Of a DNA stretch of 54,667 bases, positions 10,059 to 41,100 are shown piece after piece; within the stretch, counting starts at the first letter, position 1, and the number at the start of each line of letters is the position of its first letter. Source of the DNA: a virus. The stretch covers positions 1 through 54,667 of the IMG/VR virus record IMGVR_UViG_3300008113_008855, one strand, 5' to 3'. The notes beneath the pieces were generated by a model that ran no database searches, was not told the DNA's origin, and saw nothing but the letters and a program-made list of their open reading frames with translations. A program made the position numbers and the translations under genes.

Positions 10059-10430
10059 ATGCCAATTTATCTTTTTAAAAATCCCAATAGTGGTAAAATT
10101 GTTTCTGTGTTTCAACTCATGAATGATGAGCATACTTATTCAGAAGGGAATATTAAGTATGAAAGAGTGTTTACTGTACCTAACGCAGCAATAGATTCTC
10201 AAATAGACCCTAATTCTTCCCAGCAGTTCGTTGAGAAGACTGGAAAAATGAAAGGCACACTTGGAGAAATTTGGGACTACTCTAAGGAAATGAGCGAAAA
10301 GAGATCCAAGGCCACGGGAACAGATCCAATTCGAGACAAGACCGAGGCGGCATACTCTAAGAAAAGAAGAGGCATGAAGTACAAGGAAAAGATAAGTGTT
10401 TCTGAAATGCCAAAGATTCAATTTGACTAA
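10059..10430 (+). CDS. FmdB-like small protein without zinc cysteines
   Basis: The 123-residue protein starts MPIYLFKNPNSGKIVSVFQLMNDEHTY, with the layout of the FmdB/zinc-ribbon regulatory family (MP-x-Y-x-F, glycine, then a hydrophobic run), but it has no cysteine where the family usually has CxxC pairs. The C-terminal half is strongly charged and basic (KEMSEKRSKATGTDPIRDK, KKRRGMKYKEK). Similar proteins occur in phages with no known role. It starts one base after the glycosyltransferase stop, with no ribosome-binding site. Its last codons and stop (TTTGACTAA) contain a TTGACT that could be a -35 box for the RNR gene. Confidence 0.5.
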   Translation: MPIYLFKNPNSGKIVSVFQLMNDEHTYSEGNIKYERVFTVPNAAIDSQIDPNSSQQFVEKTGKMKGTLGEIWDYSKEMSEKRSKATGTDPIRDKTEAAYSKKRRGMKYKEKISVSEMPKIQFD

Positions 10431-10470
10431 CTCCAAAAAGCTGGATTATTGTGTAACTCATCTTACCTTT

Positions 10471-12444
10471 ATGACTAAAACTCTCTCTAAGGACTTCGTA
10501 AATAAATATAAAAACAAACAACCAAACTGGGGCTTCAATGGCTTAGGATATATCGTATACAAGAGAACATACGCTCGTCTTAAGGAAGATGGAAATACCG
10601 AAGAGTGGTTCGAAACGGTAGAGCGTTGCGTAAATGGCGCTCAGAAAATTGGAGCCGGTTATACAGAAGAGGAAGCCGAAAGAATTTATGATTATGTTTT
10701 TAATCTTAAATGCAACTTTGCTGGCAGAATGCTTTGGCAGCTTGGCACTTCTACAGTAGACCGCTTCGGAGCAAATTCTCTTCTCAATTGCTGGGCTGTT
10801 GCAATGAGAGAGCCTAATGCATTTTTGTTCTTGTTTGAGAACTTGATGCTTGGAGGAGGAGTTGGATACAGCATTCGTCGAGAAGACGTCCATGAGCTTC
10901 CAAAAATTAAGAAAGGTGTAACGATTATTCATGAAGGAGTTAAAGACGCTGACTACATTGTTCCTGATAAACGCGAAGGTTGGGTTAATCTACTTTCGAA
11001 GGTGTTGGACGCTTTTTACGTCACAGGTAAATCATTTTCGTATTCGACTATTCTCATCAGAGGATACGGTGAGCCAATCAAGGGCTTTGGCGGAAAAGCT
11101 TCTGGCCCACAAATCCTTATTGACGGAATCGATAAGATCACAAAACTCTTTCAGTCGAGAGAAGGTAAAAAACTTCGTTCAATTGACGTTCTTGATATCT
11201 GTAACATTATTGGTAGTGTTGTTGTTGCTGGCAACGTTAGAAGGTCTGCTGAGATAGCTCTTGGAGATCCTGACGATATCCTTTATCTCCGTGCTAAGAA
11301 CTGGGGGACCGGGAATGTTCCCAACTGGAGAGCAATGAGCAATAACACTATCTATGCTGATAGTTATGATCATGTTCTTGAAGAGATCTGGAAGAATGGG
11401 TACGAAATAAATCCAGATAGCGGCTATGCCAACGGAGAGCCTTATGGCTTCTTCAACTTGCCATTGTCTCAAAAGTTTGGCCGCATTAAGGATGGCCCGA
11501 TCTCAGACAACGCAATGTATCCAACAAGTGCTGATGATTGCGAAATGACAAACCCATGCGCCGAGATCAGCCTTTCAAATTACGAGTGCTGCAATCTGTG
11601 CGAACTTTATCTTAACAACATTGAAAGCAAAGAAGAGCTTATCGACTGCTCTCAATTGCTTTATAAGACTCAAAAGGCTATAGCCTCTCTTCCGTTCATC
11701 CATGAGCAAACTAATAAGATCGTCCACAAGAATATGCGTCTTGGCCTTGGTGTTACTGGCGTTTGTCAGTCTCTACATAAGCTTGCTTGGCTTGATGATT
11801 GTTATGTTGCTTTGCGCGCTTTTGATAGGTCTTGGAGCAAGCTTCGTGGATGGCCTGAAAGTATTAAGCTCACGACTATTAAGCCTTCTGGCACACTAAG
11901 CCTTCTTGGCGGCGCAACCCCCGGAGTTCACCCAGCGTTTAGCGAGTATTACATGCGCACAGTTCGCATGTCTAGTTCTGATGGTCTAGTTCAAATCTGC
12001 AAGGATATGGGCTACCACGTTGAGTTCCTTGTTAATTTTGATGGAACTGAAAACCGAGACACTGTAGTTGTTTATTTCCCATGCAAGACTCCTGAAGGAT
12101 CTATTCTTGCTAAGGATATGGATGTATTGAAGCAGCTTGATATGGTTAAGAAGCTTCAAACTGACTGGTCTGATAATGCAGTTTCTGTTACTGCTTACTA
12201 TAAGCCTGAAGAGCTTGATTCTTTAAAGACTTGGCTAAAGGACAACTATGAGCATAATGTTAAGAGCGTTAGCTTCTTGTTGTTTAAGAATCACGGCTTC
12301 AAGCAAGCTCCATATCAAGAGATCGACGAAGAGACCTATTCTAGCGCAATAGCTAAAGTTAAGAATCTCTCTGCAATGTCCATTAACAGTTCAGAAATGC
12401 TAGACATGGCGGAGTGCTCTACGGGGGCTTGCCCAATTCGCTAA
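10471..12444 (+). CDS. Class II (B12-dependent) ribonucleoside-triphosphate reductase
   Basis: I choose the start MTKTLSKDF at 10471; an upstream in-frame start overlaps the previous gene. The 657-residue protein has the class II monomeric RNR signature: LLNCWAVA (first active-site Cys), NPCAEISLSNYECCNLCEL (thiyl-radical Cys and the second disulfide Cys), TTIKPSGTLSLLGGATPGVH (phosphate binding) and a C-terminal redox pair CSTGAC near the end. GNVRRSAEIALG and GEPYGFFNLPLSQKFGR are further family blocks. It needs adenosylcobalamin from the host and reduces ribonucleoside triphosphates for phage DNA synthesis. It stands alone among glycan genes, not with the replication cluster. Confidence 0.93.
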   Translation: MTKTLSKDFVNKYKNKQPNWGFNGLGYIVYKRTYARLKEDGNTEEWFETVERCVNGAQKIGAGYTEEEAERIYDYVFNLKCNFAGRMLWQLGTSTVDRFGANSLLNCWAVAMREPNAFLFLFENLMLGGGVGYSIRREDVHELPKIKKGVTIIHEGVKDADYIVPDKREGWVNLLSKVLDAFYVTGKSFSYSTILIRGYGEPIKGFGGKASGPQILIDGIDKITKLFQSREGKKLRSIDVLDICNIIGSVVVAGNVRRSAEIALGDPDDILYLRAKNWGTGNVPNWRAMSNNTIYADSYDHVLEEIWKNGYEINPDSGYANGEPYGFFNLPLSQKFGRIKDGPISDNAMYPTSADDCEMTNPCAEISLSNYECCNLCELYLNNIESKEELIDCSQLLYKTQKAIASLPFIHEQTNKIVHKNMRLGLGVTGVCQSLHKLAWLDDCYVALRAFDRSWSKLRGWPESIKLTTIKPSGTLSLLGGATPGVHPAFSEYYMRTVRMSSSDGLVQICKDMGYHVEFLVNFDGTENRDTVVVYFPCKTPEGSILAKDMDVLKQLDMVKKLQTDWSDNAVSVTAYYKPEELDSLKTWLKDNYEHNVKSVSFLLFKNHGFKQAPYQEIDEETYSSAIAKVKNLSAMSINSSEMLDMAECSTGACPIR

Positions 12445-13983: not shown

Positions 13984-14715
13984 ATGAAAATTGCGATCCT
14001 GAACATCTACACAAAGAACATAAAAGAGCTTGCTGTAATTACAGTAGAGTACAACAAGAGAAAGTATTGTGAAAAGCATAACTATGATTTAATTGTTCAA
14101 ACTGATAATTTTTCAATTCCACATCTTGGTTTTGAAAAGCTGGCAATGATCAAGCGCACACTTGAGACAGGAAAGTATGACTGGGTATACTGGTGCGGCT
14201 CGGACACAATGATAACAAACTACGATATCAAGATTGAAGATTTAATTGATAATAACTATTGCTTTATTCTTGCTTGTGATGTTTGGGATTGGAATGTTGA
14301 TTCTATGCTTTTTAAGAACGATAAAAGAAGCATAGATTTCTTAGAAAAAATAATCTCTAAGCACGATCAATATGTTGACGAAAATGGAAATGCCAGAAGC
14401 AATAATATAAAGCTAAAAGATGGCTGCACTATAGCTTGGGGAGAGCAGGCTGCAATCATTGAAGAATGCAAAGGCAAATTCTTTAGTCCAGAAATCAAAG
14501 AAGAGTACAAAGACTTTGTCAAAGAAGTCCCTCAGAAAACTATGAACTCTTATCTTTACGACTTGTATCCAACTCCATTCCATGCTAAAAAAATGGACTA
14601 TCAAGAAAGAAGAGGAGAGTGGTCTGATGGAGACTTTATAATGCACTGGCCCGGAACTAGAAATGAAATTCGCATTCGATTGGCTCTAAACTCAATTCAA
14701 CTCGTCAAAGAATAA
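13984..14715 (+). CDS. GT34-like glycosyltransferase (GMA12/MNN10 type)
   Basis: The sequence shows the fold of the galactosyl/mannosyltransferase family GT34: KHNYDLIVQTDNF (34-43), HLGFEKLAMIKRTLETGKYDWVYWCGSDTMITN (47-79), QAAIIEEC with a conserved Glu-Gln and the C-terminal DFIMHWPGTR, equivalent to the usual HFPG. The metal-binding D-x-D is altered: W-C-G-S-D-T stands where WxDxD is normal, so only the second Asp is kept. Activity may be reduced or metal use changed. It sits between the GT9 pair and the sugar-biosynthesis genes, with adjacent stops and starts. Confidence 0.75.
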   Translation: MKIAILNIYTKNIKELAVITVEYNKRKYCEKHNYDLIVQTDNFSIPHLGFEKLAMIKRTLETGKYDWVYWCGSDTMITNYDIKIEDLIDNNYCFILACDVWDWNVDSMLFKNDKRSIDFLEKIISKHDQYVDENGNARSNNIKLKDGCTIAWGEQAAIIEECKGKFFSPEIKEEYKDFVKEVPQKTMNSYLYDLYPTPFHAKKMDYQERRGEWSDGDFIMHWPGTRNEIRIRLALNSIQLVKE

Positions 14716-14716
14716 C

Positions 14717-16027
14717 ATGCAAGAAATTCTAAATCTAATCAAAGAATACGCAGACTCTAATCTTACTAAAAAGAAATGGGAGGCTGGAAAAGATTGGGTT
14801 CAATATGGTGGCCCATACTTTTCATCAGCAGAGTACACCGCAGCAGTTAAGTCTCTTCTTGGCGGCTGGATTGTAATGTCTGAAGATTCATTATCTTTTG
14901 AGAATGTGTTTCCAAAACATCTTGGCAAGGAATACGGCATTCTTACTAATAGCGGCAGTAGCTCTAATTTAATTATGATGTCAGCAATGACATCTAAGAG
15001 GCTCTATAATTTTCCTAAAGGCACAAAAGTCATTACTCCAATCGCAGGATTTCCTACTACAATTAATCCTATATTTCAGGTAGGCTTTGAACCTGTGTTC
15101 GTTGATATTGATTTGGACACTTTAAACTTGAATCTTGATCAAGTTGAAGAACAAGCAAAGAAAGGAGCCAAGATTATAACTTTCGCTCATGTGCTTGGCA
15201 ATCCTCCAAATATGGATCGCTTGATGCAGATCATTAAGGACAACAATCTTGTTCTTTTGGAAGACTGCTGCGATGCTCTTGGTTGCACATATAAAGGACA
15301 AGTTCTTGGAAGCTTTGGAGAATTTGCTAGTTGCAGTTTCTATCCCGCTCATCACATGACAATGGGAGAGGGAGGATTTGTAGCTTGCAATACTAGACTT
15401 CAAGAAGTTGTAGCTAGAAGCTTCAGAGAGTGGGGTCGTGGATGTTATTGCGTAGGCAAGAAGGCTAATCTTCTCAAGAACGGAACCTGCAATAAGAGAT
15501 TCCATAATTGGCTCCCATCTATACCAGATGAAATTTTTGATCATAAATATGTCTATGATGAAATTGGTTATAATTTAAAGCCAATAGAACTTCAGGCTTC
15601 TATCGGTCTTGAACAAATCAAAAAGCTTCCTGAGATCCATAACAGGAGAAAAGAAAACCATGCCTTGCTAACCAATGCATTTAAGAAGTATGAAGAATTT
15701 TTCCATATTCCAGTAGCTACCCCAAATTCTGATCCTAGCTGGTTCGCGTTTGCTGTTACGCTAAAAGACTCATCACCATTCAAGAGGAGACGAATCGTAG
15801 ACTTCTTTGAAACCAACAAAGTTCAAACTAGACCATACTTTGCTGGCAACATAATGCTTCAGCCAGCTTACGAAGGTTATATTAGTCAAGAAGAGGTTAT
15901 TAAGAACTATCCAGTAGCAAGAAAAGTAACCTCAGATACATTCTTCTTGGGGACAAGCCCAGTTATTTCGATTCAGCAAATCCAATACATTGAAGAAAAA
16001 CTTGATTTATTTATTGGTAGTTTGTAA
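14717..16027 (+). CDS. rfbH: RfbH-type 3-dehydrase (CDP-4-keto-6-deoxyglucose 3-dehydrase)
   Basis: This is a PLP-fold enzyme of the DegT/DnrJ/EryC1/StrS family, but the catalytic lysine is replaced by histidine: SFYPAHHMTMGEGG (207-220) has His212 where aminotransferases have Lys. This is the hallmark of E1/RfbH, which removes the 3-hydroxyl of a 4-keto-6-deoxyhexose using PMP and a [2Fe-2S] cluster. The cluster ligands are visible: Cys185, then Cys243 after exactly 57 residues, then Cys245; the fourth, Cys258, follows after 12 residues where seven is usual. It needs an E3-type reductase, which I do not see nearby; the LdpA-like Fe-S protein at 19432 is a candidate electron carrier, by inference. 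The length (436) is normal. Confidence 0.9.
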   Translation: MQEILNLIKEYADSNLTKKKWEAGKDWVQYGGPYFSSAEYTAAVKSLLGGWIVMSEDSLSFENVFPKHLGKEYGILTNSGSSSNLIMMSAMTSKRLYNFPKGTKVITPIAGFPTTINPIFQVGFEPVFVDIDLDTLNLNLDQVEEQAKKGAKIITFAHVLGNPPNMDRLMQIIKDNNLVLLEDCCDALGCTYKGQVLGSFGEFASCSFYPAHHMTMGEGGFVACNTRLQEVVARSFREWGRGCYCVGKKANLLKNGTCNKRFHNWLPSIPDEIFDHKYVYDEIGYNLKPIELQASIGLEQIKKLPEIHNRRKENHALLTNAFKKYEEFFHIPVATPNSDPSWFAFAVTLKDSSPFKRRRIVDFFETNKVQTRPYFAGNIMLQPAYEGYISQEEVIKNYPVARKVTSDTFFLGTSPVISIQQIQYIEEKLDLFIGSL

Positions 16028-16038
16028 TATATTTTATC

Positions 16039-16884
16039 ATGTCTAAGGTAGTTTATATCACTGGATGCTTGGGCCTTATTGGCTCCTATCTCACTAGAGC
16101 TTGCTTAAAGCAAAATTATTATGTTATAGGAGTAGATAAAATTACCTACGCTGCAAGACCAGATCTTTTAAATGAATTTCTTGCATATGAGAAGTTTAAA
16201 TTTGAAGAGCAAGATATTTGCGATATAAGCAGACTTGTAGATTGTGATTACTTTATTAACGTTGCAGCAGAAACTCATGTAGATAACTCTATTAGAAAGA
16301 GTGATGACTTTATTAAGTCTAATATTAATGGAGTTCATAATATTCTTGAACTTATTAAAGGATACAAGAAGGAAGGAATAATTACCCCTACTCTTTTGCA
16401 CTTTAGCACCGATGAAGTTTACGGAGATATTTCTAATGGAGAGCATATTGAGACCGATCTATTAAAACCAAGCAATCCATACGCCGCAACCAAAGCCGCA
16501 GCAGATCAACTAACTCTTAATAGAAAGATTCCTCTTCATAATCAAGGAAGCCCATTCAGAAACTGGCTCCACGCAAAAGATACCGCAGAAGGAGTGCTGT
16601 CTATAATCAACAGTGGAGTAAAGAATGAAATATTTAATATTGCTGGAGGATTTGAGCAAAGTAATATCGTAACAGTCGAGAAGATTATAGCTGAATATTT
16701 TGGCAAACTTCCTTCTGATTATACCGATAAGTATCTTGATCTATCCGTCTCTAGAGAAGGGCAAGATGTAAGATATGCTCTAAATGATAATAAATTAAGA
16801 TCTTTAGGGTGGAAACCAAAGTGCAAATTTGATGATGAGTTAAAAGACATAGTTAAATATTACAAAAATAATTTCGTGTGGTAA
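16039..16884 (+). CDS. NAD-dependent 4,6-dehydratase-like enzyme with a central deletion
   Basis: The protein opens VVYITGCLGLIGSYLTRA (Rossmann G-x2-G-x2-G), has HFSTDEVYGD (about residues 117-127, the dehydratase T-D-E) and PSNPYAATKAAAD, which supplies the Y-x3-K pair. RNWLHAKDTAEG follows almost at once. In RmlB-type enzymes about 40 residues normally lie between ADQL and NRKIPLH (the region with RPTNNYGP and EKLIP), but here only TL is left. Total length is 281 where about 320-350 is usual. The enzyme therefore keeps its NAD and catalytic sites but lacks most of the sugar-nucleotide-binding segment. It is either inactive or altered, or the deletion is an assembly error. Expected substrate: dTDP- or CDP-glucose. 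Confidence 0.8.
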   Translation: MSKVVYITGCLGLIGSYLTRACLKQNYYVIGVDKITYAARPDLLNEFLAYEKFKFEEQDICDISRLVDCDYFINVAAETHVDNSIRKSDDFIKSNINGVHNILELIKGYKKEGIITPTLLHFSTDEVYGDISNGEHIETDLLKPSNPYAATKAAADQLTLNRKIPLHNQGSPFRNWLHAKDTAEGVLSIINSGVKNEIFNIAGGFEQSNIVTVEKIIAEYFGKLPSDYTDKYLDLSVSREGQDVRYALNDNKLRSLGWKPKCKFDDELKDIVKYYKNNFVW

Positions 16885-16915
16885 ACTAGCTTTTTAACAT
16901 TTACAATATTAAATT

Positions 16916-18679
16916 ATGACAAAGATTAGAGTCTCTGATTATATTGCCAACTTTTTAGAAAGCAAAGGCATAAAATACGCATTTGAAGTTCCCGGTGGTG
17001 GAGCAATGTTTTTAAATGACTCTATTGCAAAAAGCAACATTAAACCTATTTTTTGCCATCACGAACAGGCTTGTGCTATGGCTGCCGTTGGTTATACAAA
17101 ATTAACCAATGAAACATCTTTAGTAGTTTGTACCTCTGGGTGCGCTGGAACAAATGTTATTACAGGATTATTAGACGCATGGCAAGACAGCCATAAATTA
17201 ATAGTAATATCCGGACAAGTAAATAAAAAAGATACAACTTATTTAAAAAATGTTCCACTAAGAAAACTAGGTATACAAGAAGTAAATATAGTAAAAATTA
17301 TCAGCTCTATAACCAAGTATTCTACTATGGTTGAAGACGCTAATAATATTGCTTATGAGCTAGAAAAGGCATACCATATATGCACAACTGGCCGTCATGG
17401 ACCCGTTTGGATAGACGTTCCACTAGATATCCAGTCCGCTTATATAAATTTAGAAGACCTAAATCATTTTAATATTCCAGAAGTTGTTGTTGGTAGCAAA
17501 GAATCTGAGGTATTTAAAAAATACTTGTCGGAATCAAAAAGACCTATAATAATTGCTGGCAATGGAATATATTTGTCCAACTCTAAAAACGAATTTAAAA
17601 ATTTTATTGAACAATATCAAATTCCAGTAGCATGCACATTTTTAGGTATAGATATACTAGAAGAAGAGCATCCTCTTTATGTTGGCAGAATAGGGCTCAA
17701 AGGAACTAGAGCTGGTAATTTTGCCGTTGCTAATTCTGATTTAGTAATATCTATCGGAAGCTCTCTTAATATTCCTACTACTGGTTTTCAATATCATTTA
17801 TTCGCTAGAGAAGCTAAGATAATAGCGATTGACATTGATACTAACGAGCACTCAAAAAACACTGTAAAAATAAATGAAATAATAAATGAAGATATTTCTA
17901 ATTTTATATCTTCTAATATGCGTTTGGAATACAGATGCCCATCAACTTGGGTAGAAAAATGTCAACATTGGAAAAACAAATGGAATACATTCGATAGAAA
18001 AGATATAGATTTATTGAATATGTATTCTTTCTCTAAGAAGTTAGGAGAAATTACAAAAGAAAGCAAGTCAATTGTTGTCACGGATGCCGGATCTGCTAAT
18101 TATGTGCTATGTCAAACTCTTATTAATAGCAGACTAATACTTCCTGCTGCTCAAGGAGAAATGGGGTTTATGATTCCAGCCTGCGTTGGAATTAGTCTTG
18201 GAGCAAAAAATGAAAATGTAATAGGCGTAACTGGAGAAGGATCTTTTCAATTTAATATCCAAGAGCTTCAAACTATAGTTCAAAACAAACTTCCTATAAA
18301 AATGTTTATTTTGAACAATGGCGGTTATTTGTGCATAAGAAACACTCAAATAAAATTCTTTAATAAAAATTTCTCTGGCGTAGACGCAAGCTCAGGGGTT
18401 TCTTTTCCAGATCCAGAAAAAATCGCATATGCATATGGAATACCTTTTAAGAGAATATCTAACATAGAAGAATTGCATCAAAATTTAAAATCAATAATAG
18501 AATATAATGGAGCATATTTGTGCGAAATAATGTGCCCATCTGATGAAGAAGTTTATCCTACATCAGCAACAATGAAAACAGAAGATGGAAAATTAGTATC
18601 TCAACCATTAGAAAACATGTCTCCATTCTTATCTAAAGAAGAGTTTGAGAAAGAAATGATAGTCAAAATTCACAAATAA
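16916..18679 (+). CDS. Thiamine diphosphate enzyme of the acetolactate synthase family
   Basis: The 587-residue protein has the three domains of the family: the N-terminal PYR domain with the catalytic Glu50 in CHHEQACAMAAVGY, a middle domain, and a C-terminal PP domain with GEGSFQFNIQELQ followed by IKMFILNNGGY (about 440-470), the G-x-G-...-NN metal/TPP motif. It transfers an acyl group from a 2-keto acid. Behind an RfbH-type dehydrase this recalls YerE, which adds an acetyl unit to a 4-keto-3,6-dideoxy sugar to make a branched-chain sugar (yersiniose). That role is inferred from neighbourhood. It is not an obvious biosynthetic acetolactate synthase because no regulatory subunit or other isoleucine/valine genes are present. 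Confidence 0.8.
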   Translation: MTKIRVSDYIANFLESKGIKYAFEVPGGGAMFLNDSIAKSNIKPIFCHHEQACAMAAVGYTKLTNETSLVVCTSGCAGTNVITGLLDAWQDSHKLIVISGQVNKKDTTYLKNVPLRKLGIQEVNIVKIISSITKYSTMVEDANNIAYELEKAYHICTTGRHGPVWIDVPLDIQSAYINLEDLNHFNIPEVVVGSKESEVFKKYLSESKRPIIIAGNGIYLSNSKNEFKNFIEQYQIPVACTFLGIDILEEEHPLYVGRIGLKGTRAGNFAVANSDLVISIGSSLNIPTTGFQYHLFAREAKIIAIDIDTNEHSKNTVKINEIINEDISNFISSNMRLEYRCPSTWVEKCQHWKNKWNTFDRKDIDLLNMYSFSKKLGEITKESKSIVVTDAGSANYVLCQTLINSRLILPAAQGEMGFMIPACVGISLGAKNENVIGVTGEGSFQFNIQELQTIVQNKLPIKMFILNNGGYLCIRNTQIKFFNKNFSGVDASSGVSFPDPEKIAYAYGIPFKRISNIEELHQNLKSIIEYNGAYLCEIMCPSDEEVYPTSATMKTEDGKLVSQPLENMSPFLSKEEFEKEMIVKIHK

Positions 18680-18680
18680 T

Positions 18681-19430
18681 ATGAAAAATTTAATTGAAAA
18701 TTTACAAAATTTATCTATCTCACGCAATGTCATTGGAATTAAACAGTCTTTTGAAGATGAAGGCGTTTCTACCGAAGATGTAATTCTAGCAAGAAGAATT
18801 ACAGATAAGTGCGAGCTTCAAAGCTTTGTCAAAATAGGAGGGTGCGAAGCTAAGTCTGATTTAAATAAATGTATCAAGATCGGGATTGATAATATCATAG
18901 CTCCAATGGTAGAGTCTGAGTTTTCTTTATCTAAATTTATAAATATCACAAATGATCATTCCAGTTTAATAAATAGATTTATAGTGGTAGAAACTAAAAC
19001 AGCATATCAAAATATAGATGAGCTTTTAAGTTTAGCGAAGAACAGTTTAAATGGAATAATTGTTGGCAGATCAGATTTTTCTAAATCTTATAACTTAAAT
19101 AAATCTGAATGCGATAGCGATTTTATTTTTGAAAAAGTAAAAGATATTTTTACAAAATGCAAAAAAGAAAAACTCCAAACAACTTTGGGAGGAAACATTT
19201 CCGCAAAAAGCGTCAAGTTTATAAAAGAAATGTATTTTAATTCTTTACTTGACAAAATCGAAACCAGAAACATAGTAGTAAAGTTGAATCAATCTAACGT
19301 TTCTGACCTAGATAACACCATTCAAGAAATCCTTAAATTTGAAATTGAATGGACTCAATTCAAAAGAAACAAACTGTTTTCCTCCTTAGGGGAGCTAGAT
19401 AGTAGAATCAAAATATTAAATAATCGATAA
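18681..19430 (+). CDS. HpcH/HpaI aldolase / citrate-lyase-beta-like protein
   Basis: The 249-residue protein shows a TIM-barrel of the HpcH/HpaI type: FVKIGGCEAKSDLNKCIKIG, then NIIAPMVES, FIVVETKTAYQNIDELL (the E-T-x-x-A-x-x-N metal-binding block) and GIIVGRSDFSKSY (the G-x-x-D loop). These enzymes cleave or form C-C bonds between pyruvate and aldehydes with a divalent metal. Lys/Asn-rich codons dominate. It starts one base after the TPP enzyme and two bases before the LdpA-like gene, so the three are one transcriptional unit. Together they may build or cleave a carbon-branched sugar or its 2-keto acid donor; the exact reaction is unknown. Confidence 0.7.
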   Translation: MKNLIENLQNLSISRNVIGIKQSFEDEGVSTEDVILARRITDKCELQSFVKIGGCEAKSDLNKCIKIGIDNIIAPMVESEFSLSKFINITNDHSSLINRFIVVETKTAYQNIDELLSLAKNSLNGIIVGRSDFSKSYNLNKSECDSDFIFEKVKDIFTKCKKEKLQTTLGGNISAKSVKFIKEMYFNSLLDKIETRNIVVKLNQSNVSDLDNTIQEILKFEIEWTQFKRNKLFSSLGELDSRIKILNNR

Positions 19431-19431
19431 A

Positions 19432-20589
19432 ATGAAAACACGATTCGAAACATTGCAAAGTATTGTTCATAAAGAACAGTGTTTTAAAATGATATGCGGA
19501 GCTGGAAATGAAGATAGAAATCATGTAAAAAAACTAGCTTTTGTTTACACTTTAGCTGGAACAAAAATTTTAGATGTATCAGCAAATGTTGAGGTTGTAA
19601 AGGCCGCAATGGAAGGCATTGATCTAGCTTATGATTACGCTCATAAATTAAATACTACAATAGAGCATAGACCATATATTATGGTAAGCGTCGGTATGCC
19701 AGGAGACCCTCATGTTAGAAAGTCATTTATAAATCAAGACAAATGTATTGCATGTACTTTATGCATTCCAATTTGCCCAACCGACGCTATCCCTAAAGAC
19801 TTTACTAAGAATTTAGATTTTTTTAAGAAACTTAATGGATCGTTTGACGTAGAGGATCAGTCAAAAGAAATTGTAATAAAAGATCTATGTATTGGATGCG
19901 GTAAATGCAGCAGCATCTGTCCAAAATCTGATATCATATCATATAGACACAACGCAAGAGAAGTTAATGAATTACTGCCAAAATGCATGAATGCAGGAGC
20001 AGAACTATTCGAGCTTCATGCTGGCGTTGGTGAAGACGATATCACTCTCCAAGAGTGGAAGCTTATCAATGAAATAAATACAAACAATTATAATTCAATG
20101 TGTCTAGATAGATTAAATCTTGGCAATTTGCGACTAGAACATCGAATTCAAGAAGCTAAAAAGATTTCAGGAAATAGGCTAATGATTCAAGCTGACGGCT
20201 ATCCAATGAGCGGTGGAGAAGACGATTATAATACAACCCTTCAAGCTGTCTCATGCGCCGATGTTGTAAATAAAAAATTCAACATGAGAATCGATAAAAA
20301 GCGAGGACTAGATAAATTAGGAAAGCCAAAGATATCATCTAAAAAAATCTATAAAGATATAAATGATAATGATAATATTCCTATTCTTATATCTGGAGGA
20401 ACCAACTCATTCAGTAAAGAACTAGCTGAAAAAGCTGGAGTAAGAATAAATGGCGTGTCTATAGGAACATTTGCAAGAGACCTTATCGAAGAGTTTATTG
20501 TTTCTAATGATTTCTATAATAACGATGAGCTAATAAATTTAGCATATTTAAATGCTAAAGAACTAATCACCAAAAGCAACAAAGCATAA
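19432..20589 (+). CDS. LdpA-like protein with two [4Fe-4S] clusters
   Basis: The N-terminus (FKMICGAGNEDRNHVKKLAFVYTLAGTKILDVSANVEVVKAA, then PYIMVSVGMPGDPHVRKSF) matches the pattern of the cyanobacterial circadian-input protein LdpA, which senses redox state. Two ferredoxin motifs follow: C105-x2-C108-x2-C111-x3-C115 and C153-x2-C156-x2-C159-x3-C163. The remaining 220 residues (AGAELFELHAGVGEDD, LMIQADGYPMSGG, IPILISGGTNSFSKELA) look like a TIM-barrel tail. In a sugar cluster an electron-transfer or radical-supporting role for the dehydrase seems more likely than circadian signalling, but that is inference. Homologues outside cyanobacteria exist; the assignment rests on motif layout. Confidence 0.65.
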   Translation: MKTRFETLQSIVHKEQCFKMICGAGNEDRNHVKKLAFVYTLAGTKILDVSANVEVVKAAMEGIDLAYDYAHKLNTTIEHRPYIMVSVGMPGDPHVRKSFINQDKCIACTLCIPICPTDAIPKDFTKNLDFFKKLNGSFDVEDQSKEIVIKDLCIGCGKCSSICPKSDIISYRHNAREVNELLPKCMNAGAELFELHAGVGEDDITLQEWKLINEINTNNYNSMCLDRLNLGNLRLEHRIQEAKKISGNRLMIQADGYPMSGGEDDYNTTLQAVSCADVVNKKFNMRIDKKRGLDKLGKPKISSKKIYKDINDNDNIPILISGGTNSFSKELAEKAGVRINGVSIGTFARDLIEEFIVSNDFYNNDELINLAYLNAKELITKSNKA

Positions 20590-20592
20590 AAC

Positions 20593-20973
20593 ATGAAACA
20601 ACTAACGATAGCTGTAGACTTTGACGGAACATTATGCGAATACGCATTTCCTAATATAGGAAATCAAACCGATCAGCAAAAGCAACTTTTAAATCTTTTG
20701 ATCAGCCTGAAGCAAAAAGGTCACTATTTGATACTATGGACAAATCGAGGAGACAATGAAAAATTAAAATGCTTAAGCGAAGCAATTGAATGGTGCAAGC
20801 AACAAGGCTTAGAATTCGATCAAATTAATAAAAACAATCCAGAAAGAGAAGCTAAAAAGCTTTCTGGATATAGCCCTAAAATTTTAGCAGATTACTATAT
20901 AGACGACAAAGCTCTTGAGTTCGGAAACGAAGCTGCAAGGTTTAGAAGCTTAAGTTTTCTATCTTCTCTATGA
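20593..20973 (+). CDS. HAD-superfamily hydrolase
   Basis: The 126-residue protein has the HAD nucleophile motif VDFDGTL (8-14), the second motif ILWTNRG (about 47-53, Thr) and a distal acidic pair ADYYIDDKALEF. There is no cap domain, as in small C0-type phosphatases such as 5'(3')-nucleotidases and sugar phosphatases. In this operon it probably removes a phosphate from a sugar or nucleotide intermediate. It ends with an ATGA overlap with the next gene. Confidence 0.85.
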   Translation: MKQLTIAVDFDGTLCEYAFPNIGNQTDQQKQLLNLLISLKQKGHYLILWTNRGDNEKLKCLSEAIEWCKQQGLEFDQINKNNPEREAKKLSGYSPKILADYYIDDKALEFGNEAARFRSLSFLSSL

Positions 20974-21740
20974 AAATTTTAATTACTGGGTCAAACGGTT
21001 ATGTAGCGAAAGCGCTTATTGAGTCTTTAAGTAAAAAACATTCAATTACTTGTTTATCTAGGATGGAAGCAGATTTAACATCTCTAGAAGAGGTTAATTA
21101 TTTTTTTAATAAACATTCAATTTTTGATGTTGTAATACATACCGCAATAACTGGAGGAAGAAGGACAAAGCCTGAAGATGGCGAAACTACAGATCAGAAC
21201 ATAAAGATGTATTATAATCTTTTAGAAAATAGAAATAGTTTTCGCAGATTTATTTCATTTGGATCTGGTGCAGAACTTCTAGCCTTAAACACGCCTTATG
21301 GTATAAGCAAAAGACTTATAGCAGACTCAATGAAGTATAAGGACAAATTTACTAACATTAGAATATTCGGTTGTTTTGATCATAATGAAGCAAACGATAG
21401 GTTTATAAAAGGAAATATAATCCGTTATATAAATAAAGAGCCCATTCAAATATACGAAAACAAACAGATGGACTTCTTCTTCATGGAAGATTTGATTTCT
21501 ATTGTTGAATATTGCCTAGCTCAAGAAAATCCTCCTAAAGAAGTAAACTGCTCATACAAAGAAAAATACTCTCTTTATCAAATTGCTGAAATAATAAATT
21601 GCCTAGGAAACCATAATGTACCTATATCCTCAAACAATTCTTTTGGAAAAGATTACATTGGAGAATTTAATTTACCGATCTCATATCTTGGACTAGAGAA
21701 AGGTATCAGGTCGGTTTATAATAAACTATCTAACTCATGA
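20970..21740 (+). CDS. NAD-dependent epimerase/dehydratase (extended SDR)
   Basis: The protein begins MKILITGSNGYVAKAL with the nucleotide-binding G-x2-G motif and has the catalytic Y-x3-K (PYGISK, about 110-115) and a serine block FISFGSGAE. The length (256) is short but complete for atypical SDRs in O-antigen operons. Likely substrate is a nucleotide-activated 4-keto sugar, reduced or epimerised. It lacks a clear ribosome-binding site; the start overlaps the stop of the HAD gene and its own stop overlaps the next start (ATGA). Confidence 0.8.
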   Translation: MKILITGSNGYVAKALIESLSKKHSITCLSRMEADLTSLEEVNYFFNKHSIFDVVIHTAITGGRRTKPEDGETTDQNIKMYYNLLENRNSFRRFISFGSGAELLALNTPYGISKRLIADSMKYKDKFTNIRIFGCFDHNEANDRFIKGNIIRYINKEPIQIYENKQMDFFFMEDLISIVEYCLAQENPPKEVNCSYKEKYSLYQIAEIINCLGNHNVPISSNNSFGKDYIGEFNLPISYLGLEKGIRSVYNKLSNS

Positions 21741-22630
21741 ATTCCGAAAGCAAGAAAAGATACGCCATACGAAGACATCTCTCTGGAGATGGTCTTGGGT
21801 CCAAAATGGGCAACTATGCGATTCTTTATGCTATTCATTTAGGAACAGGATTAATACCAGCTTATCTTAGCGACGAGTCTAATGATGCTTTTGATTTCTT
21901 TAATAAAGATAAAAACAATGTTTTAGATATCAAACAAGCTTTTCCAAATGTAAAAAAAGTATTTGAAAAAATAAATTTTTCAGAACACAAATGGGAACAC
22001 GTTAATACTGGTGTAATGCCATTAGAAAATATTATATACAGCATAATAGTAAATAGAAAATTTGGGCAATTTCCAAATTTTAGTTTTGAATGGTTTCAAA
22101 GGTACGATCAATGGTATGCTTTCAGAAGAGAAGTCACAGAGCTGTTTACTTTTAATTCAGATTTAATAAATAAAGCAAAATCCAATCTCCCAAACATAAA
22201 TAAAAAAATAGTGGGCGTTTCATTCAGAAACGAATATAAGAAATTTAATAGCACTGGAGGTCATAGTAAATTAGGAATTGATTATTATCGCAAAGCTTTT
22301 AGTTGCTTTCCTAAGGAAGATTATTGCTTTCTTATATTTGCAGATTTTTTTGAACAATGCCCAGAAGTTTTAGATCAATTATCTGGTGAGTACGATATAA
22401 TGTATACAAAAGAAAACATGTCTAGCGCAGAAGGCATGGCTACCCTTTCTCTTTGTGATAGCATTATTAATTCTAATAGTTCTTTTAGTTTTTGGGCTTC
22501 GTTTTTAAATAAAAATATAAACAAAAAAATCATTGCCCCAAATTACTTTTTACATCCTAGCCACGCTGGAGCAGGTCTTTTAAACCACAGATGGTTTCCT
22601 AGTGAATGGACTGGATTAAACGAAGTATAA
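21737..22630 (+). CDS. GT11-type (alpha-1,2-fucosyltransferase-like) glycosyltransferase
   Basis: The 297-residue protein shows the GT11 layout: an N-terminal GLGSKMGNYAILYAI (nucleotide-binding glycine loop), VGVSFRNEYKK in place of the usual V-x-H-x-R-x-G-D-Y, HSKLGIDYYRKAF and the C-terminal SSAEGMATLSLCDSIINSNSSFSFWASFLN, close to the family block SLCDHFIIANSSFSWWGAWL. GT11 enzymes add fucose from GDP-fucose to galactose. The Gmd-like gene at 23553, the enzyme that starts GDP-fucose synthesis, is broken, so the donor may come from the host. Donor and acceptor are inferred. Confidence 0.75.
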   Translation: MNSESKKRYAIRRHLSGDGLGSKMGNYAILYAIHLGTGLIPAYLSDESNDAFDFFNKDKNNVLDIKQAFPNVKKVFEKINFSEHKWEHVNTGVMPLENIIYSIIVNRKFGQFPNFSFEWFQRYDQWYAFRREVTELFTFNSDLINKAKSNLPNINKKIVGVSFRNEYKKFNSTGGHSKLGIDYYRKAFSCFPKEDYCFLIFADFFEQCPEVLDQLSGEYDIMYTKENMSSAEGMATLSLCDSIINSNSSFSFWASFLNKNINKKIIAPNYFLHPSHAGAGLLNHRWFPSEWTGLNEV

Positions 22631-22632
22631 TT

Positions 22633-23541
22633 ATGACATACGAAGCTTTCATGTTCTTCCAAGAGAACGACCTTCTTGAGGTAAAATTAAATCAACACTG
22701 GAATTTCATAGATAAATTTATTATCGTCGAAGCTGGAGAAACTCACACTGGTATAAAAAAGGATCTTATATTTGATCACGAAAGATTCAAAAAATACTCA
22801 GATAAAATCATATACAGATCATTCAATTCATTTGCAGAACTATATGATATTTATCCCAATATAGTCTCTGGACATATATACAAAACGGTTAAAGCTCAGC
22901 CACATCTTGCCTTAAATGACTGGATGAGAGACGCTATTCAAGCCGAATATCTAACAGTTGTATTATTAGAGCAGCAACCAAAAGATTCAGACATTATTCT
23001 TTTCTCCTGTCTGGACGAAATATTAAATGAAGAAGCCTTTTCAGAGGCTCATAAAATTTTTTCAGAAAGTAAAACTTACAATCTTTATTCTCATCTTCAA
23101 CGTAAATATATTACAACCTCTTGCGATTTTGCTCCCACTTTTGGATTTGATGTAGACATGTACGCTTATAAGCTGAATCTATATAGCAAAAAAAGTGCTA
23201 TTGGATGCATGACTTTATTTTCTAATTTAAACAAAATTAAACACACAGAACTTAGATATTATGCTTTAAGTACTCACGATCCGATTAAAAATGCTGGATG
23301 GCACTTTACATTCTTAGATGACACAAGAGGAGAAAAAGCCCTGAAAAAATACAAAAGCTGGGCTCACTCAAGAGATAGCGGTCATAATGTTTCTTATTTT
23401 GATATTGAAACTCCATTAGAAGCCGAAAAAAGAGTCATTTCCGAATACAATACTCAGGTAGTAGAAATATCTTCAAAGACTCACCCCAAATGGCTCATTG
23501 ACAACATCTCTAAATATTCTAGTTACATTTATTCTGCTTGA
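22633..23541 (+). CDS. GT17-type glycosyltransferase
   Basis: I choose the ATG at 22633 (MTYEAFMFFQENDLLEVKL), a start that fits the family YDxFxFFNELDLLEIRL; an in-frame ATG at 22606 overlaps the previous gene. THTGIKKDLIF follows, and NAGWHFTFLDD near residue 225 matches the C-terminal block of beta-1,4-N-acetylglucosaminyltransferases. The usual SDLDEIP metal-binding block reads ILFSCLDEIL: the first Asp is Cys, so metal binding may be impaired. Products with this fold add GlcNAc-like sugars to glycans; the acceptor is unknown. Confidence 0.8.
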   Translation: MTYEAFMFFQENDLLEVKLNQHWNFIDKFIIVEAGETHTGIKKDLIFDHERFKKYSDKIIYRSFNSFAELYDIYPNIVSGHIYKTVKAQPHLALNDWMRDAIQAEYLTVVLLEQQPKDSDIILFSCLDEILNEEAFSEAHKIFSESKTYNLYSHLQRKYITTSCDFAPTFGFDVDMYAYKLNLYSKKSAIGCMTLFSNLNKIKHTELRYYALSTHDPIKNAGWHFTFLDDTRGEKALKKYKSWAHSRDSGHNVSYFDIETPLEAEKRVISEYNTQVVEISSKTHPKWLIDNISKYSSYIYSA

Positions 23542-23552
23542 TTATAATTAGT

Positions 23553-23732
23553 ATGAAAAAGATTCTGATAACTGGTATTCTCGGGCAAGATGGCGCTAAC
23601 ATGGCGGAATACTTACTTAAGAATACTGACTGCCTAATCTATGGCATGATGCGTAGAAGCTCGAATCCAAATTTTATTAATTGTCAGTCATGGATGCAGT
23701 TGGGAAATGCCGTTGCAGACGCTAGACGTTAA
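23553..23732 (+). pseudogene. gmd: Gmd (GDP-mannose 4,6-dehydratase), N-terminal fragment
   Basis: The frame opens KKILITGILGQDGANMAEYLL, the Gmd start with the Rossmann GxxGQDG motif, then RRSSNPNFIN and runs into stop after CQSWMQLGNAVADARR. In intact enzymes about 45 residues separate RRSSNPN from the FAAQS block. Here the segment after NPNFIN is missing and the frame is shifted, so this fragment cannot by itself encode an active protein. The remaining 260 codons continue in another frame from the ATG at 23707. Confidence 0.75.
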
Positions 23733-24492
23733 TGCAAACGGAGTTCTTAGATGCTTAGAGGCCATCAGAAAACTAAAGCCTGCTTGCAGATTCTATTCCG
23801 CTGGCTCAAGCGAAGAATTCGGAGACGTTGAATATTTCCCTCAGGATATTAAGCATCCAATAAGACCAAGAAGCCCATATGGCGCATCAAAAGCTTCAGC
23901 TAGGCACATTGTTAAAGTTTATAGAGAGTCTTATAATCTATATGCTGTTCACGGTATTTTATTTAACCATGAAGGCACGAAAAGAGGAGAAGAATTTGTA
24001 ACTCGTAAAATTACCAAAGGAGTAGCTCGAATTAAGAAAGCTATAGACAGCAATCAAGTATTTACCCCAATTGAATTAGGTAATCTAGACTCTAAAAGAG
24101 ACTGGTCAGATTCAGAAGACTTTGTTGATGGGGTATGGAAAATGCTAAATCAAGAAAAGCCCAAGGACTATGTTCTTTCTAGCGATGAGACCCATTCGAT
24201 CAGGGAGTTCGTAGAGAAGGCATTTAAATTTGCTGGAATAAATGGAGCTTGGCATGGGCAAGGACTAACCGAAGAGTACAGCGTTACAACCGAGTACGCT
24301 TTAAAAAATGAGCCTATCTCATCTATCTTAGTTAAAATAAATCCTAAATTTTACAGACCAGCAGAGGTTGATCTTCTCTTGGGCAATTCTGAGCCAGCTA
24401 GGGAAGAACTCAAGTGGGCTCCAAAAACTTCATTTAATGCCCTTGTCAAAAAAATGGTTGAAAATGACATTCGCCTCTTGACTGGGGCGTGA
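23707..24492 (+). CDS. gmd: Gmd (GDP-mannose 4,6-dehydratase), C-terminal part in another frame
   Basis: The frame reads SWEMPLQTLDVNANGVLRCLEAIRKL just upstream and from its ATG, then FYSAGSSEEFGD (Ser/Glu catalytic block), SPYGASKASARH (Y-x3-K), GILFNHEGTKRGEEFVTRKIT and YFRPAEVDLLLGN-type C-terminus: a full GMD core after the deletion. Normally the enzyme turns GDP-mannose into GDP-4-keto-6-deoxymannose, the first step to GDP-fucose. Translation from 23707 would give a protein without the NAD-binding N-terminus, so it is probably inactive. Either the phage gene is decayed, or bases are missing from the assembly. Confidence 0.7.
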   Translation: MPLQTLDVNANGVLRCLEAIRKLKPACRFYSAGSSEEFGDVEYFPQDIKHPIRPRSPYGASKASARHIVKVYRESYNLYAVHGILFNHEGTKRGEEFVTRKITKGVARIKKAIDSNQVFTPIELGNLDSKRDWSDSEDFVDGVWKMLNQEKPKDYVLSSDETHSIREFVEKAFKFAGINGAWHGQGLTEEYSVTTEYALKNEPISSILVKINPKFYRPAEVDLLLGNSEPAREELKWAPKTSFNALVKKMVENDIRLLTGA

Positions 24493-37886: not shown

Positions 37887-38156
37887 TTACCACTTTCCTG
37901 CTGGACAGCTTTCAAAATCTAATTTTACTTTAATAGTAACAAAGCATCCACACAGTTCGCATCTGCCGCTTTGCTTGCAAAGCTTTGGGCATTTGTTGCA
38001 AATAGATAACCTCTTTTCCGCGCTATCCGGATTAGAGGTTATTTTTTCATTATTTATTATTGCTGAAGCGGCTTTCTTTGATGAAGAGACAAGGCTATTT
38101 TTAATTTTTAAACCTTCCTTCATTAAACTGGAAAACGAAAGATCGTTTTGACTCAT
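37887..38156 (-). CDS. Small zinc-binding protein
   Basis: The 89-residue protein has a charged, Ser-rich N-terminus and a cysteine-rich end: ICNKCPKLCKQSGRCELCGCFVTIK and CPAGKW, seven or more Cys in the last 40 residues arranged C-x2-C...C-x2-C-x-C. This layout occurs in small phage and bacterial zinc proteins of unknown function. It is the last gene of the leftward virion block and overlaps the 38153-41629 gene by four bases (ATGA), so expression is coupled to it. Confidence 0.75.
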   Translation of the reverse strand: MSQNDLSFSSLMKEGLKIKNSLVSSSKKAASAIINNEKITSNPDSAEKRLSICNKCPKLCKQSGRCELCGCFVTIKVKLDFESCPAGKW

Positions 38157-41100
38157 ATCTTAATTGTACTAGGATAGAAGTTAGAATATCTAAAATCTAA
38201 TGTAGTGCTAGAAGAAGTCCCGCAAGTTTCAGAGCAAAAAACCTGATATGTATTTTTTATTCCATTTGGCAAAGCCAAAGCTGAAGCTGTTCCACTAGCA
38301 GACTCAGACAATCTTCCTCCTGTATAAAATCTAAAATTCCTTGTTTGAGTTGGTACGTCTATTGGAACATTTGTATTTGCTGGTATGGCTCTTGGATAAG
38401 CGTCTCCGAAAACTCCATTGCAACTAATAAATCCCACCCCGCCCTCTTGATATGGCTCGTAAGAAGAGCAAGAGTAAGTCAATTTTGTTTCTATTGCTAA
38501 GAATTTTTTCTTTAGACTTCTAACAAAAGATGCTGGCAAAGCTTTTTCCATCCAAGGGTGTACAAAAGGATTGAATGACATAGAATCTGAATACTCTGTA
38601 GATCTAATATAAACTCCTTGCCCACCGGTTACTTTTTGAGGGATATCCTGATTCTTTAAGTCTACTCTATTTACTGATCTACCAGCTGATACTCCAATGA
38701 TAGAATTAACTGGTAAATAATAGCTATATTTGCCAGGAGAAGAAACCTTATCTCCACCTGTGCTAAAATTAATAATCTTGTTTTTATCTGGCTCTTCATC
38801 TTTTAGGTAGTATTCATTAAATTGCCTTTCAAAATCAATCGCCCAAACCATTGGGAGAATGACTCTTGCTTCATTTAGATTATTTATTCCATCTACCAAT
38901 CTGTTGAAAAAGCTATTGGCTCTTGGTAACATGTTCGGAAGAGTTCCGTAAGCTGGCGCTCCATCAGCCCTCGACTCAAGAGGCAGCAACGTTAACCAAG
39001 GAGGCGCAGCGGCAGTGTCATAGATTGAGATTGCAGCGCTCGCATCTGTATAAACGTCTAGATTGCTCAAAGAGAAGGTTTGACCGCTCTTGGTGGTAGA
39101 TATGAAATTTTCATTTAATACCGTTGCATCAGATCCCTCTATTATTGATGATGAGCTGTTTACCGAGCTAGGAACGCTAGAGTCTTCAATCTCTGGCGTG
39201 GCAGCGTCAGTATCTTCATTATATATAGAAACGTTTTCTAATGGATTGTTGTATTTATCTGCGTAGAGCTTAGAAATTTGATACCAAAATGGATCAAGTT
39301 TAAGCATTGACGTTTCGTCTTCTGGATTTATATTAGTGTTTATGTAAGTTGATGCTGATCCAGAGTTGGCGTTTGTTTGTTCGGCGGCATTTTGCTGAGC
39401 TATATTATTTCTTGATAAGTAATCTTGTAGCACTTTAGCTTCTTGATCGTCTAGCGCGGCATCATTAGATCCAACTTGATTTAATGGCTTGCCGCCGTAT
39501 AGAGAAGCTTTTAGTTTGCTAAATGAGCTATTGATTGGTTTTAAAAACTCAGGAATATCGGTTCTTTTTGTTGATACAATCTTATATGAAGATTTTATAA
39601 TTGGAGTTAGATCGCTAAATGTTTGAATCCTTTTATCTGATTCGGTTTTAAACATTGAGTACCCATAGCCAGGATCAATGATTTTAATTCCTGATATCTT
39701 TCCGTATTCATTTAATACAACCTCTGCTTTTGCAGGCTTACCATTAGAATCTATATTAGGATCAGGAAGCTGAACCTTTGGAGCAATCAAAAACACTTCA
39801 TCAGGCTTAACTGGCAAATCAATGTAAGTTATTGTGCCTTCTCTAATTGGATCTGTGTAGAAAGCTTTTGATTCAGAAGTTAATTTATATAATGTTTTAA
39901 GTGTTTGAGTTATTGTGGCTGAGCCTTGATTATCTATAGCCAAATAAGTCATTCCTTCTATTTTATCGAACTCTTTAAACCCCCTATCTGGCAATCTGAT
40001 TCCTCTCAAAGCGTAATCATCTAAGTTAAAAGAAATTGTATTATCAGCCGCATTTCTTGATGTTGATCCTATAAACTCATCATAAACAAGATAATTCCAA
40101 GTAGGAGGCAGCAGCATCTTATCGAAAGAATATTCAACTGATCTATACGCAGTAGTGCAAGTTACATTGTGCTTTTCTATTTGTATTTTAAGATTTGCTG
40201 TTTTATTATCTAGGTTAGAGATTTTATCAAATAGATTTAAATAAGCTTGATTTACAGACGATCTCTTGAGCCTCAAAACAAATTTATCTTCATCTATATT
40301 ATAGTTTTCATTGTTTCCAAGCTTTAATGATGTAGCACTTAGAATAGTTCTGTAAACTGACCCATCATAGTATTGTACCGATACTTGTAAATCTGTTGTT
40401 AAAACACTAGCAGTAGCATTAAAAAGACTATAGTTATAAAAATCTTCTACTATTTTCCAAAACAAGATAACATCAGTAGTTAGCCCGCTTTGGTCTTTAA
40501 TTATATTAATGCATGGCAAGATTTCTGACACGCAAGCTGGATAAACGAATCCTTTATAGTTGTTAGATATAGAATTCTTTGGAGTTGCTTCGTACTGGAA
40601 TCCAGTAAAATATTCTCCACCTACAAATAGATTTACAATGAACTCTTGATCGGATGTCTTACCTTTGAATTTATCAAAATCTGAAAACAAGTGAGCAAAA
40701 GAGTGCTCGATCTTCTCGGTTGTTGAGCCTCTAACTGCCGTTATATTTTCTGCTTGTTTGTAAGTTTCTGAAATTTTTGCTTTTATTTCGTATCTTAATG
40801 CTGCTGGCTGCTTTTGATTTATTGTTAGATCTGGAACTGTGCCGCTTGGGTTCGCTACTCCTTCTAAGCCTAAAGCGTCAAAGAACAAAAATCTTTCTTT
40901 GCTAAAGTAATCCCCAAGCCCAGTGGCCGTGGTTTTAACTAGAAAGAAAATGGCAGATCCTATAGATGGGACATTAATTTTGATTTTATTGAAGATTATT
41001 GAATATCCAGAAACATCTTTATTATCATCTAGGATTTCAGTTACAGATGACGATCCTATATCTAAAGTTATTGGGGTCCAGCTTGGCGCTATTTCATTCT

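Follow-up and report, generated by a model that had tools for sequence, protein, structure and literature searches.

A phage sugar operon with a predicted pathway for a C4-branched deoxysugar

The virus record IMGVR_UViG_3300008113_008855, a stretch of 54,667 bases that is called the window throughout, contains phage replication genes (a UvsX-like recombinase, a DnaB-like helicase, a DNA polymerase and exonucleases), tail-fibre-like genes and a sugar operon from 12521 to about 24492. An original prediction, made from the letters alone, had proposed that five genes of this operon form a pathway for a branched or 3,6-dideoxy sugar. The five genes were found at 14717-20589, head to tail on one strand and spaced by 1-31 bp. 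The prediction was thus partly confirmed: the genes are real, but the dehydratase is internally deleted and the sequence similarity of the 'aldolase' is weak. The gene list was right for these five and left out two members of the set, a haloacid dehalogenase (HAD) phosphatase-like gene at 20593-20973 and a short-chain dehydrogenase/reductase (SDR) gene at 20970-21740. On balance, we favour a C4-branching pathway that joins a thiamine diphosphate (TPP) enzyme to an aldolase-like protein, ALD. The genes considered, with the evidence for each, were:

13984-14715, plus strand: GT34-like glycosyltransferase (PF05637; same operon)
14717-16027, plus strand: RfbH, CDP-4-keto-6-deoxyglucose 3-dehydrase-like, of the pyridoxamine phosphate/[2Fe-2S] kind (NF011936, His212, cysteine set, PDB 3bcx/3bb8)
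16039-16884, plus strand: NDP-sugar 4,6-dehydratase, RmlB-like, with a 38-residue internal deletion (TIGR01181; comparison with contig L002)
16916-18679, plus strand: probable YerE-like TPP-dependent carboligase, called acetolactate synthase by annotation tools (JanthE match, trees)
18681-19430, plus strand: ALD, phosphoenolpyruvate (PEP)/pyruvate-domain aldolase-like protein (predicted HpaI/pyruvate kinase fold, conserved residues, gene context)
19432-20589, plus strand: LdpA-like protein with two [4Fe-4S] motifs and a predicted TIM barrel, putative accessory (similarity to LdpA)
20593-20973, plus strand: HAD phosphatase-like, BT0820-like (NF046079 at 89 bits, below the cut-off of 165; phosphatase/cyclase alternation)
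20970-21740, plus strand: SDR (Pfam Epimerase; recurs beside the TPP enzyme)
21737-22630, plus strand: GT11-like glycosyltransferase (PF01531; same operon)
22606-23541, plus strand: GT17-like glycosyltransferase (PF04724; same operon)
23553-24492, plus strand: GDP-mannose 4,6-dehydratase, split by a deletion at 23691 (the listed reading frame starts at 23707) and intact in L002 (gmd, 271 bits)

The first gene of the five had been described as an RfbH-type dehydrase with His212 at the catalytic Lys position and a C-x57-C-x-C spacing, and all of this was borne out. Its product passed the curated NCBIfam equivalog NF011936 (449 bits; cut-off 423), and the closest solved structures were the CDP-4-keto-6-deoxyglucose 3-dehydrase entries 3bcx and 3bb8. 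His212 lies within PAHH and was aligned to the His of 3bcx and to the Lys of 3bb8, the position of the Lys that binds pyridoxal phosphate. With the fourth Cys included, the cysteines read C185-x57-C243-x-C245-x12-C258; in the studied E1 the gap before the fourth Cys is 7, five fewer than the 12 here. The 4,6-dehydratase-like gene was also present, but the window copy has lost an internal piece and encodes 281 residues, compared with 319 in the sister contig L002 (also L018; IMGVR_UViG_3300008107_008959). The intact copy was nearest to dTDP-glucose 4,6-dehydratase (TIGR01181, 292 bits, below the cut-off of 365) and did not reach the model of the CDP-glucose 4,6-dehydratase RfbG (TIGR02622, 63 bits; cut-off 278).

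Three TPP-enzyme Pfam domains were found in the product of 16916-18679. The best PDB match was 8rph with 360 bits, compared with 242 bits for the best acetolactate synthase (AHAS). The entry 8rph is JanthE, a YerE-like enzyme from Janthinobacterium (PMC12188165). The curated AHAS model was not passed, the best NCBIfam match reaching 357 bits against a cut-off of 538. In a tree of 66 rows, E. coli IlvB, IlvI and Gcl together with PDB 5ahk were split off by a 100/100 branch, with JanthE on the side of the window's enzyme. A second tree was built from another sample with the longest rows, Gcl and 5ahk, dropped, and AHAS was again split off at 100/100. JanthE was the sole characterised YerE-like member of these trees, which did not include YerE and ErwE themselves. 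The original prediction had named a firm grouping with the anabolic acetolactate synthases as a result that would refute it; the phylogeny gave no such grouping, the split from IlvB and IlvI being 100/100.

Moreover, an Arg common to IlvB, IlvI, 5ahk and Gcl, which we take to recognise the second 2-oxo acid substrate of AHAS, is Pro in JanthE and in 8/8 phage enzymes compared, including the window's. Among the TPP enzymes of the gene loci described below, 50/61 kept this Arg, essentially the cellular ones, and the loss of the Arg alone therefore does not define the group. The Mg-motif is GEG in the window enzyme, GDG in most others and CDG in JanthE. The JanthE-like clade proper holds phage enzymes of the L003 type, and the window's enzyme lies outside it. 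Judged from these sequence comparisons, the window's TPP enzyme appears to be YerE-like and to belong to the ketone-adding subgroup, where it would add an acyl anion to a 4-ketosugar. TPP-enzyme matches in 50,697 phage records were at most 32% identical, and the annotated ones were host-type acetolactate synthases; these were set aside.

ALD had been called HpcH/HpaI aldolase-like. The sequence similarity behind this name was weak, with a partial match to Pfam HpcH_HpaI at 31.3 bits (cut-off 25) and no PDB sequence match below E=0.2, but the predicted fold agreed with it. The AlphaFold model (pLDDT 92) gave HpaI aldolases and pyruvate kinases as best fold matches (Foldseek E 6e-9, TM 0.62). 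K21, E25, E27, K51, E56, E78, E104, R130, D132, E194 and R196 were invariant across 151 ALD sequences, and E104 and D132, which aligned with the HpaI/pyruvate-kinase ligands, are likely metal ligands. In an alignment by eye, Lys51 (VKIGG) appeared to stand where HpaI has VRP (active-site Arg, R70 of HpaI). ALD forms a family of its own, distributed widely, whose predicted fold resembles that of HpaI. The family is conserved, probably catalytic and of the pyruvate/PEP-binding fold, and may act as an aldolase.

The gene company of ALD was then compared. Similarity to ALD served to collect the loci, 80 from GTDB genomes and 80 + 16 from viral contigs, with a few added via LdpA similarity; the company of other genes was therefore not selected for in the main scans. 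Removal of duplicates left 151 ALD loci, 72 viral and 79 cellular. A TPP enzyme was present in 112 and a CMP-ulosonate transferase (PseF-like, family f12) in 20, and no locus had both. The 112 TPP loci carried a dehydroquinate-synthase-like cyclase (52), a HAD-type phosphatase, of which there were four sorts (42), both (1) or neither (17). The sole locus with both, L186, carries ALD twice, and each copy has a partner of its own. When genes on the same strand were counted, the numbers were 108 for the TPP enzyme, 20 for the CMP-transferase and 0 for both, and 48 for the cyclase, 43 for the phosphatase and 0 for both. Transferases missed by the probe were found among the remaining 19 loci, namely KdsB in L022, L125 and L127 and a PseF-like one in L144; in the three former loci KdsB, above its cut-off, comes after ALD-LdpA-HAD-HpaI. 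A HAD-like gene adjoins ALD in L091, although the probes found neither partner there. In the methanogen loci L053 and L063, with no cyclase or phosphatase by the probes, a 2-dehydro-3-deoxygluconokinase-like gene lies between ALD and the TPP enzyme.

The ALD tree shows 16 changes of the cyclase label, of which well-supported branches force at least 10, and 4 changes of the CMP-transferase label. The alternation therefore does not go back to a single ancient event. L005, in the window's own ALD clade, has the CMP-transferase and its sisters the TPP enzyme. The combination with an aldolase and an LdpA-like protein had been said to match no known pathway. As a set, RfbH, SDR, TPP enzyme and aldolase are not peculiar to this phage, since they recur together across many bacterial and archaeal phyla and in dozens of phages. 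Such recurrence indicates that the aldolase belongs to the pathway.

Two gene orders were seen in these comparisons. The Methanobacteriaceae loci L053 and L063 have the order RfbF-RfbG-RfbH-ALD-kinase-like-TPP, an archaeal version of the pathway. A cassette of RfbH, dehydratase, ALD, SDR, dehydroquinate-synthase-like cyclase, TPP enzyme and SDR occurs in more than 20 distinct viral contigs (L109-L188, e.g. L169:7962-12120).

For the tested cyclases, the best match was the model TIGR04425, 'AroB-related putative sugar phosphate phospholyase (cyclizing)', with scores that equalled its cut-off or fell short of it. The charged AroB residues inspected were kept in 51/51 cyclases. Some of the kept dehydroquinate synthase residues presumably bind the carboxylate end of the substrate, and cyclisation before decarboxylation is therefore possible.

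The LdpA-like protein showed similarity over its full length to cyanobacterial LdpA and two CX2CX2CX3CP motifs, whose eight Cys were invariant in 13 relatives. These features uphold the earlier description of an LdpA-like Fe-S protein, although the curated LdpA model was missed (142 bits against a cut-off of 450). Its predicted structure had a mean pLDDT of 73, was poor in the Fe-S insert and matched generic TIM-barrel enzymes best, at a TM of about 0.3-0.4. The gene stood beside ALD and the HAD gene in 13 loci with the TPP enzyme, in 9 with the CMP-transferase and in 4 with neither by the probes, three of which have KdsB. In the 151 loci it never accompanied an ALD whose only partner is the cyclase, and some similarly arranged loci, such as L008, also lacked it. 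This distribution over phosphatase-type loci therefore points to an optional step on the open-chain branch. A role as general electron donor of RfbH was considered and rejected, since the LdpA-like gene is present with ALD in loci that lack RfbH.

Together with the TPP set, the LdpA-like gene occurred in 13/72 viral and 0/79 cellular ALD loci, and its addition to this set looks phage-specific in this sample. In scans for a cellular source, it was found in 0/399 genomes in the phylum of G007 (a Nitrosovibrio), 1/396 in that of G003 (Flavobacteriales), 1/251 in that of G001 (Chloroflexi) and 3/247 in the order of G004 (Pelagibacteraceae). All of these matches were previously identified carriers, and no further genomes were found. 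L024, a contig of a Flavobacteriales metagenome-assembled genome, shares the gene order of the phage contigs L014 and L015, and it is probably a viral contig binned in that genome.

These comparisons bear on the product of ALD. The alternation of a phosphatase with a phosphate-eliminating cyclase would be natural if the ALD product, or a derivative of it, carries a phosphate. Likewise, the alternation of a CMP-ulosonate transferase with a decarboxylating TPP enzyme suggests a 2-ulosonic acid, and the gluconokinase-like and KdsB neighbours support the same identity. ErwE, a YerE-like enzyme, is reported to take 4-hydroxy-2-oxo acids as donors and not pyruvate (PMC12247030). From the partner alternation and this donor preference, an ulosonate made by ALD is proposed as the donor of the TPP enzyme.

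We therefore incline, with somewhat better than even confidence, to read the operon as encoding a yersiniose/erwiniose-type pathway that branches a deoxysugar at C4, in which the TPP enzyme would use a keto acid made by ALD. The 4,6-dehydratase would form an NDP-4-keto-6-deoxyhexose, from which RfbH, whose family assignment is clear, would remove the C3 hydroxyl to give an NDP-3,6-dideoxy-4-ketohexose. ALD, to go by its fold and gene partners, would join pyruvate or PEP to a phosphorylated short sugar aldehyde, giving a phosphorylated 3-deoxy-2-ulosonate, a 4-hydroxy-2-oxo acid. The HAD enzyme would strip the phosphate before or after coupling, so that the window would follow the open-chain branch. 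The YerE-like enzyme, placed by its subgroup, would decarboxylate the keto acid and add the acyl anion to the C4 ketone, and a tertiary alcohol bearing a polyhydroxyacyl branch would result. The SDR might reduce the branch ketone, a YerF-like role, or another ketone of the pathway, and the glycosyltransferases of the operon would then put the branched sugar into a glycan. The LdpA-like protein would be an optional accessory of the ALD-HAD branch. In relatives with the dehydroquinate-synthase-like cyclase in place of the phosphatase, the branch would be cyclised, likely to a carbocycle, and in loci lacking the TPP enzyme the CMP-ulosonate transferase would take the ALD product. The original proposal of a branched 3,6-dideoxy sugar made by RfbH and a YerE-like enzyme is thus supported.

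Several observations weigh against this pathway. The cellular relatives have an RfbF-RfbG pair, whereas the window's dehydratase belongs to the dTDP-glucose type, and to our knowledge known RfbH enzymes act on CDP-sugars. RfbF (glucose-1-phosphate cytidylyltransferase) and RfbI (E3 reductase) were not found among the operon genes scanned in the window; RfbF/RfbG-like genes were found in many cellular relatives, and the host may supply the cytidylyltransferase and E3 reductase functions. The similarity of ALD to proven aldolases is remote. L020, a close relative, has RfbH, dehydratase, TPP enzyme (84% identical), LdpA, HAD and SDR genes and neither ALD nor a remnant of it, and six phages carry a genuine HpaI-type aldolase gene between the TPP enzyme and ALD. 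Finally, the Fisher tests of partner counts take no account of common descent, for which the tree count corrects only in part.

Some of these points would also fit a plain yersiniose-type pathway, in which the TPP enzyme uses pyruvate to make a two-carbon branch, and ALD, the LdpA-like protein and the HAD enzyme form a separate ulosonic-acid module. YerE of Yersinia pseudotuberculosis does use pyruvate (PMC12247030), the TPP enzyme is retained without ALD in L020, and the ALD-LdpA-HAD trio occurs without the TPP enzyme beside a CMP-ulosonate transferase or KdsB. However, ALD is accompanied by the TPP enzyme in 112 of its 151 loci, mostly in the absence of the LdpA-like gene and across many phyla, and a separate ulosonate module would require the CMP-transferase, which is absent from every TPP locus. 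This explanation is considered unlikely.

Still less probable, in our judgement, is that ALD, with the LdpA-like and HAD proteins, makes an aldehyde or other precursor while a true HpaI aldolase of phage or host makes the keto-acid donor. In favour of this reading, ALD is strongly diverged from HpaI, and an HpaI-type gene adjoins it in six TPP phages and three KdsB loci. Yet most TPP loci carry ALD without HpaI, including the window and ten compared loci with other types of TPP enzyme, whereas all six HpaI-carrying phages have the type that groups with JanthE (100/98-99). In those six phages, HpaI instead of ALD may be the pyruvate aldolase and donor source.

The integrity of the operon was assessed against L002, in which the aligned blocks are all 99.4-100% identical to the window. 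L002 carries 114 bp more at window position 16511, in the dehydratase, about 122 bp more at 23691, where the window's GDP-mannose dehydratase has lost its start, and about 172 bp more near 28494. These clean deletions, of which two fall within sugar genes, could mean that the window's copy is decaying and makes no product. This is very improbable, because the genes are intact in so similar a contig and deletions of 114-172 bp with perfect flanks resemble assembly errors; their perfect flanks and similar sizes suggest that the window deletions are such errors. A phage acetolactate synthase for branched-chain amino acids, as an auxiliary metabolic function, is hardly credible despite the name given by curated models (below cut-off) and a viral ilvB/ilvG/ilvI that a karst-lake virus study tabled with rfbG and filed under valine, leucine and isoleucine synthesis (PMC8226683). 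The trees and the lost Arg argue against it, as does the constant company of sugar genes; moreover, no gene for a small regulatory subunit and no further ilv gene was seen in the neighbourhood.

Elsewhere in the window, a B12-dependent (class II) ribonucleotide reductase gene lies directly upstream of the sugar operon at 10396-12444. Very long proteins of 2157, 1003 and 1158 residues, encoded at 44211-50684, 50662-53673 and 38153-41629 (minus strand), had no Pfam match, and the 1003-residue protein likewise had no PHROG match.

In the 50,697 phage records, no match was found to the operon DNA or to ALD, and the LdpA-like protein gave weak matches only. Branched 3,6-dideoxysugars and YerE-like enzymes are already known. 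In the literature searched, no description was found of an aldolase family tied to YerE-like enzymes, of the cyclase alternative, of a step by an LdpA-like protein or of carriage by phages. Searches for the gene combination gave only reviews of YerE-like enzymes, and a survey of 200 YerE-like clusters that is cited there may mention the aldolase link. We tentatively suggest, at rather less than even odds, an undescribed chemistry in which widespread ulosonate-making aldolases feed YerE-like enzymes to give 4-C-polyhydroxyacyl sugars, cyclitol-bearing where the cyclase is present, in many bacterial phyla and dozens of phages, with a further step by a mostly phage-borne Fe-S enzyme of the LdpA family in phages such as this one.

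The analysis gives a loosely defined phage sugar operon a proposed pathway whose steps are named and can be tested. The predicted products, with open-chain or cyclised C4 branches, could be sought in bacterial O-antigens and in phage-infected cells. Viral 'ilvB' genes filed as amino-acid metabolism, such as the ilvB/ilvG/ilvI of the karst-lake study, may be YerE-like enzymes of branched-sugar synthesis. Biocatalysis also gains many new TPP enzymes that probably add to ketones, together with the aldolases that probably make their donors. Moreover, LdpA has been described as a redox sensor of unresolved mechanism (PMC13421787), on which a metabolic relative may, speculatively, shed light.

Compared with known systems, the operon shares with the yersiniose A pathway an RfbH-type dehydrase, a YerE-like TPP enzyme that would act on a 3,6-dideoxy-4-ketohexose, and an SDR. 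It differs in its aldolase-like, phosphatase-like and LdpA-like genes, none of which we know of in the yersiniose cluster, and in being carried by a phage; YerE, moreover, uses pyruvate. In the erwiniose/caryophyllose systems (ErwE, MMAR_2332), the TPP enzyme prefers a 4-hydroxy-2-oxo acid donor, the compound class that aldolases make (PMC12247030), but these systems are cellular and the window's operon is phage-borne. JanthE is the closest solved relative of the window's TPP enzyme, and both have Pro for the AHAS Arg, whereas the Mg-motifs differ (CDG and GEG) and the window's enzyme stands outside the JanthE-like clade proper. ALD resembles the HpcH/HpaI pyruvate aldolases in predicted fold and in where its likely metal ligands, Glu104 and Asp132, lie, and differs in its marginal sequence similarity and its own motifs GxKxxxExEG, KxGGxEA and GRxD. 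The LdpA-like protein has the full-length similarity and the two [4Fe-4S] motifs of the cyanobacterial clock protein LdpA, but scores under a third of the cut-off and is found in phage sugar operons, with no clock genes seen. Finally, the chemistry order of the Kdo pathway, KdsA-KdsC-KdsB, is like the proposed order ALD-HAD-CMP-transferase in loci without the TPP enzyme. ALD is unrelated to KdsA in the family searches run, and where the TPP enzyme is present, decarboxylation of the keto acid would take the place of its activation.

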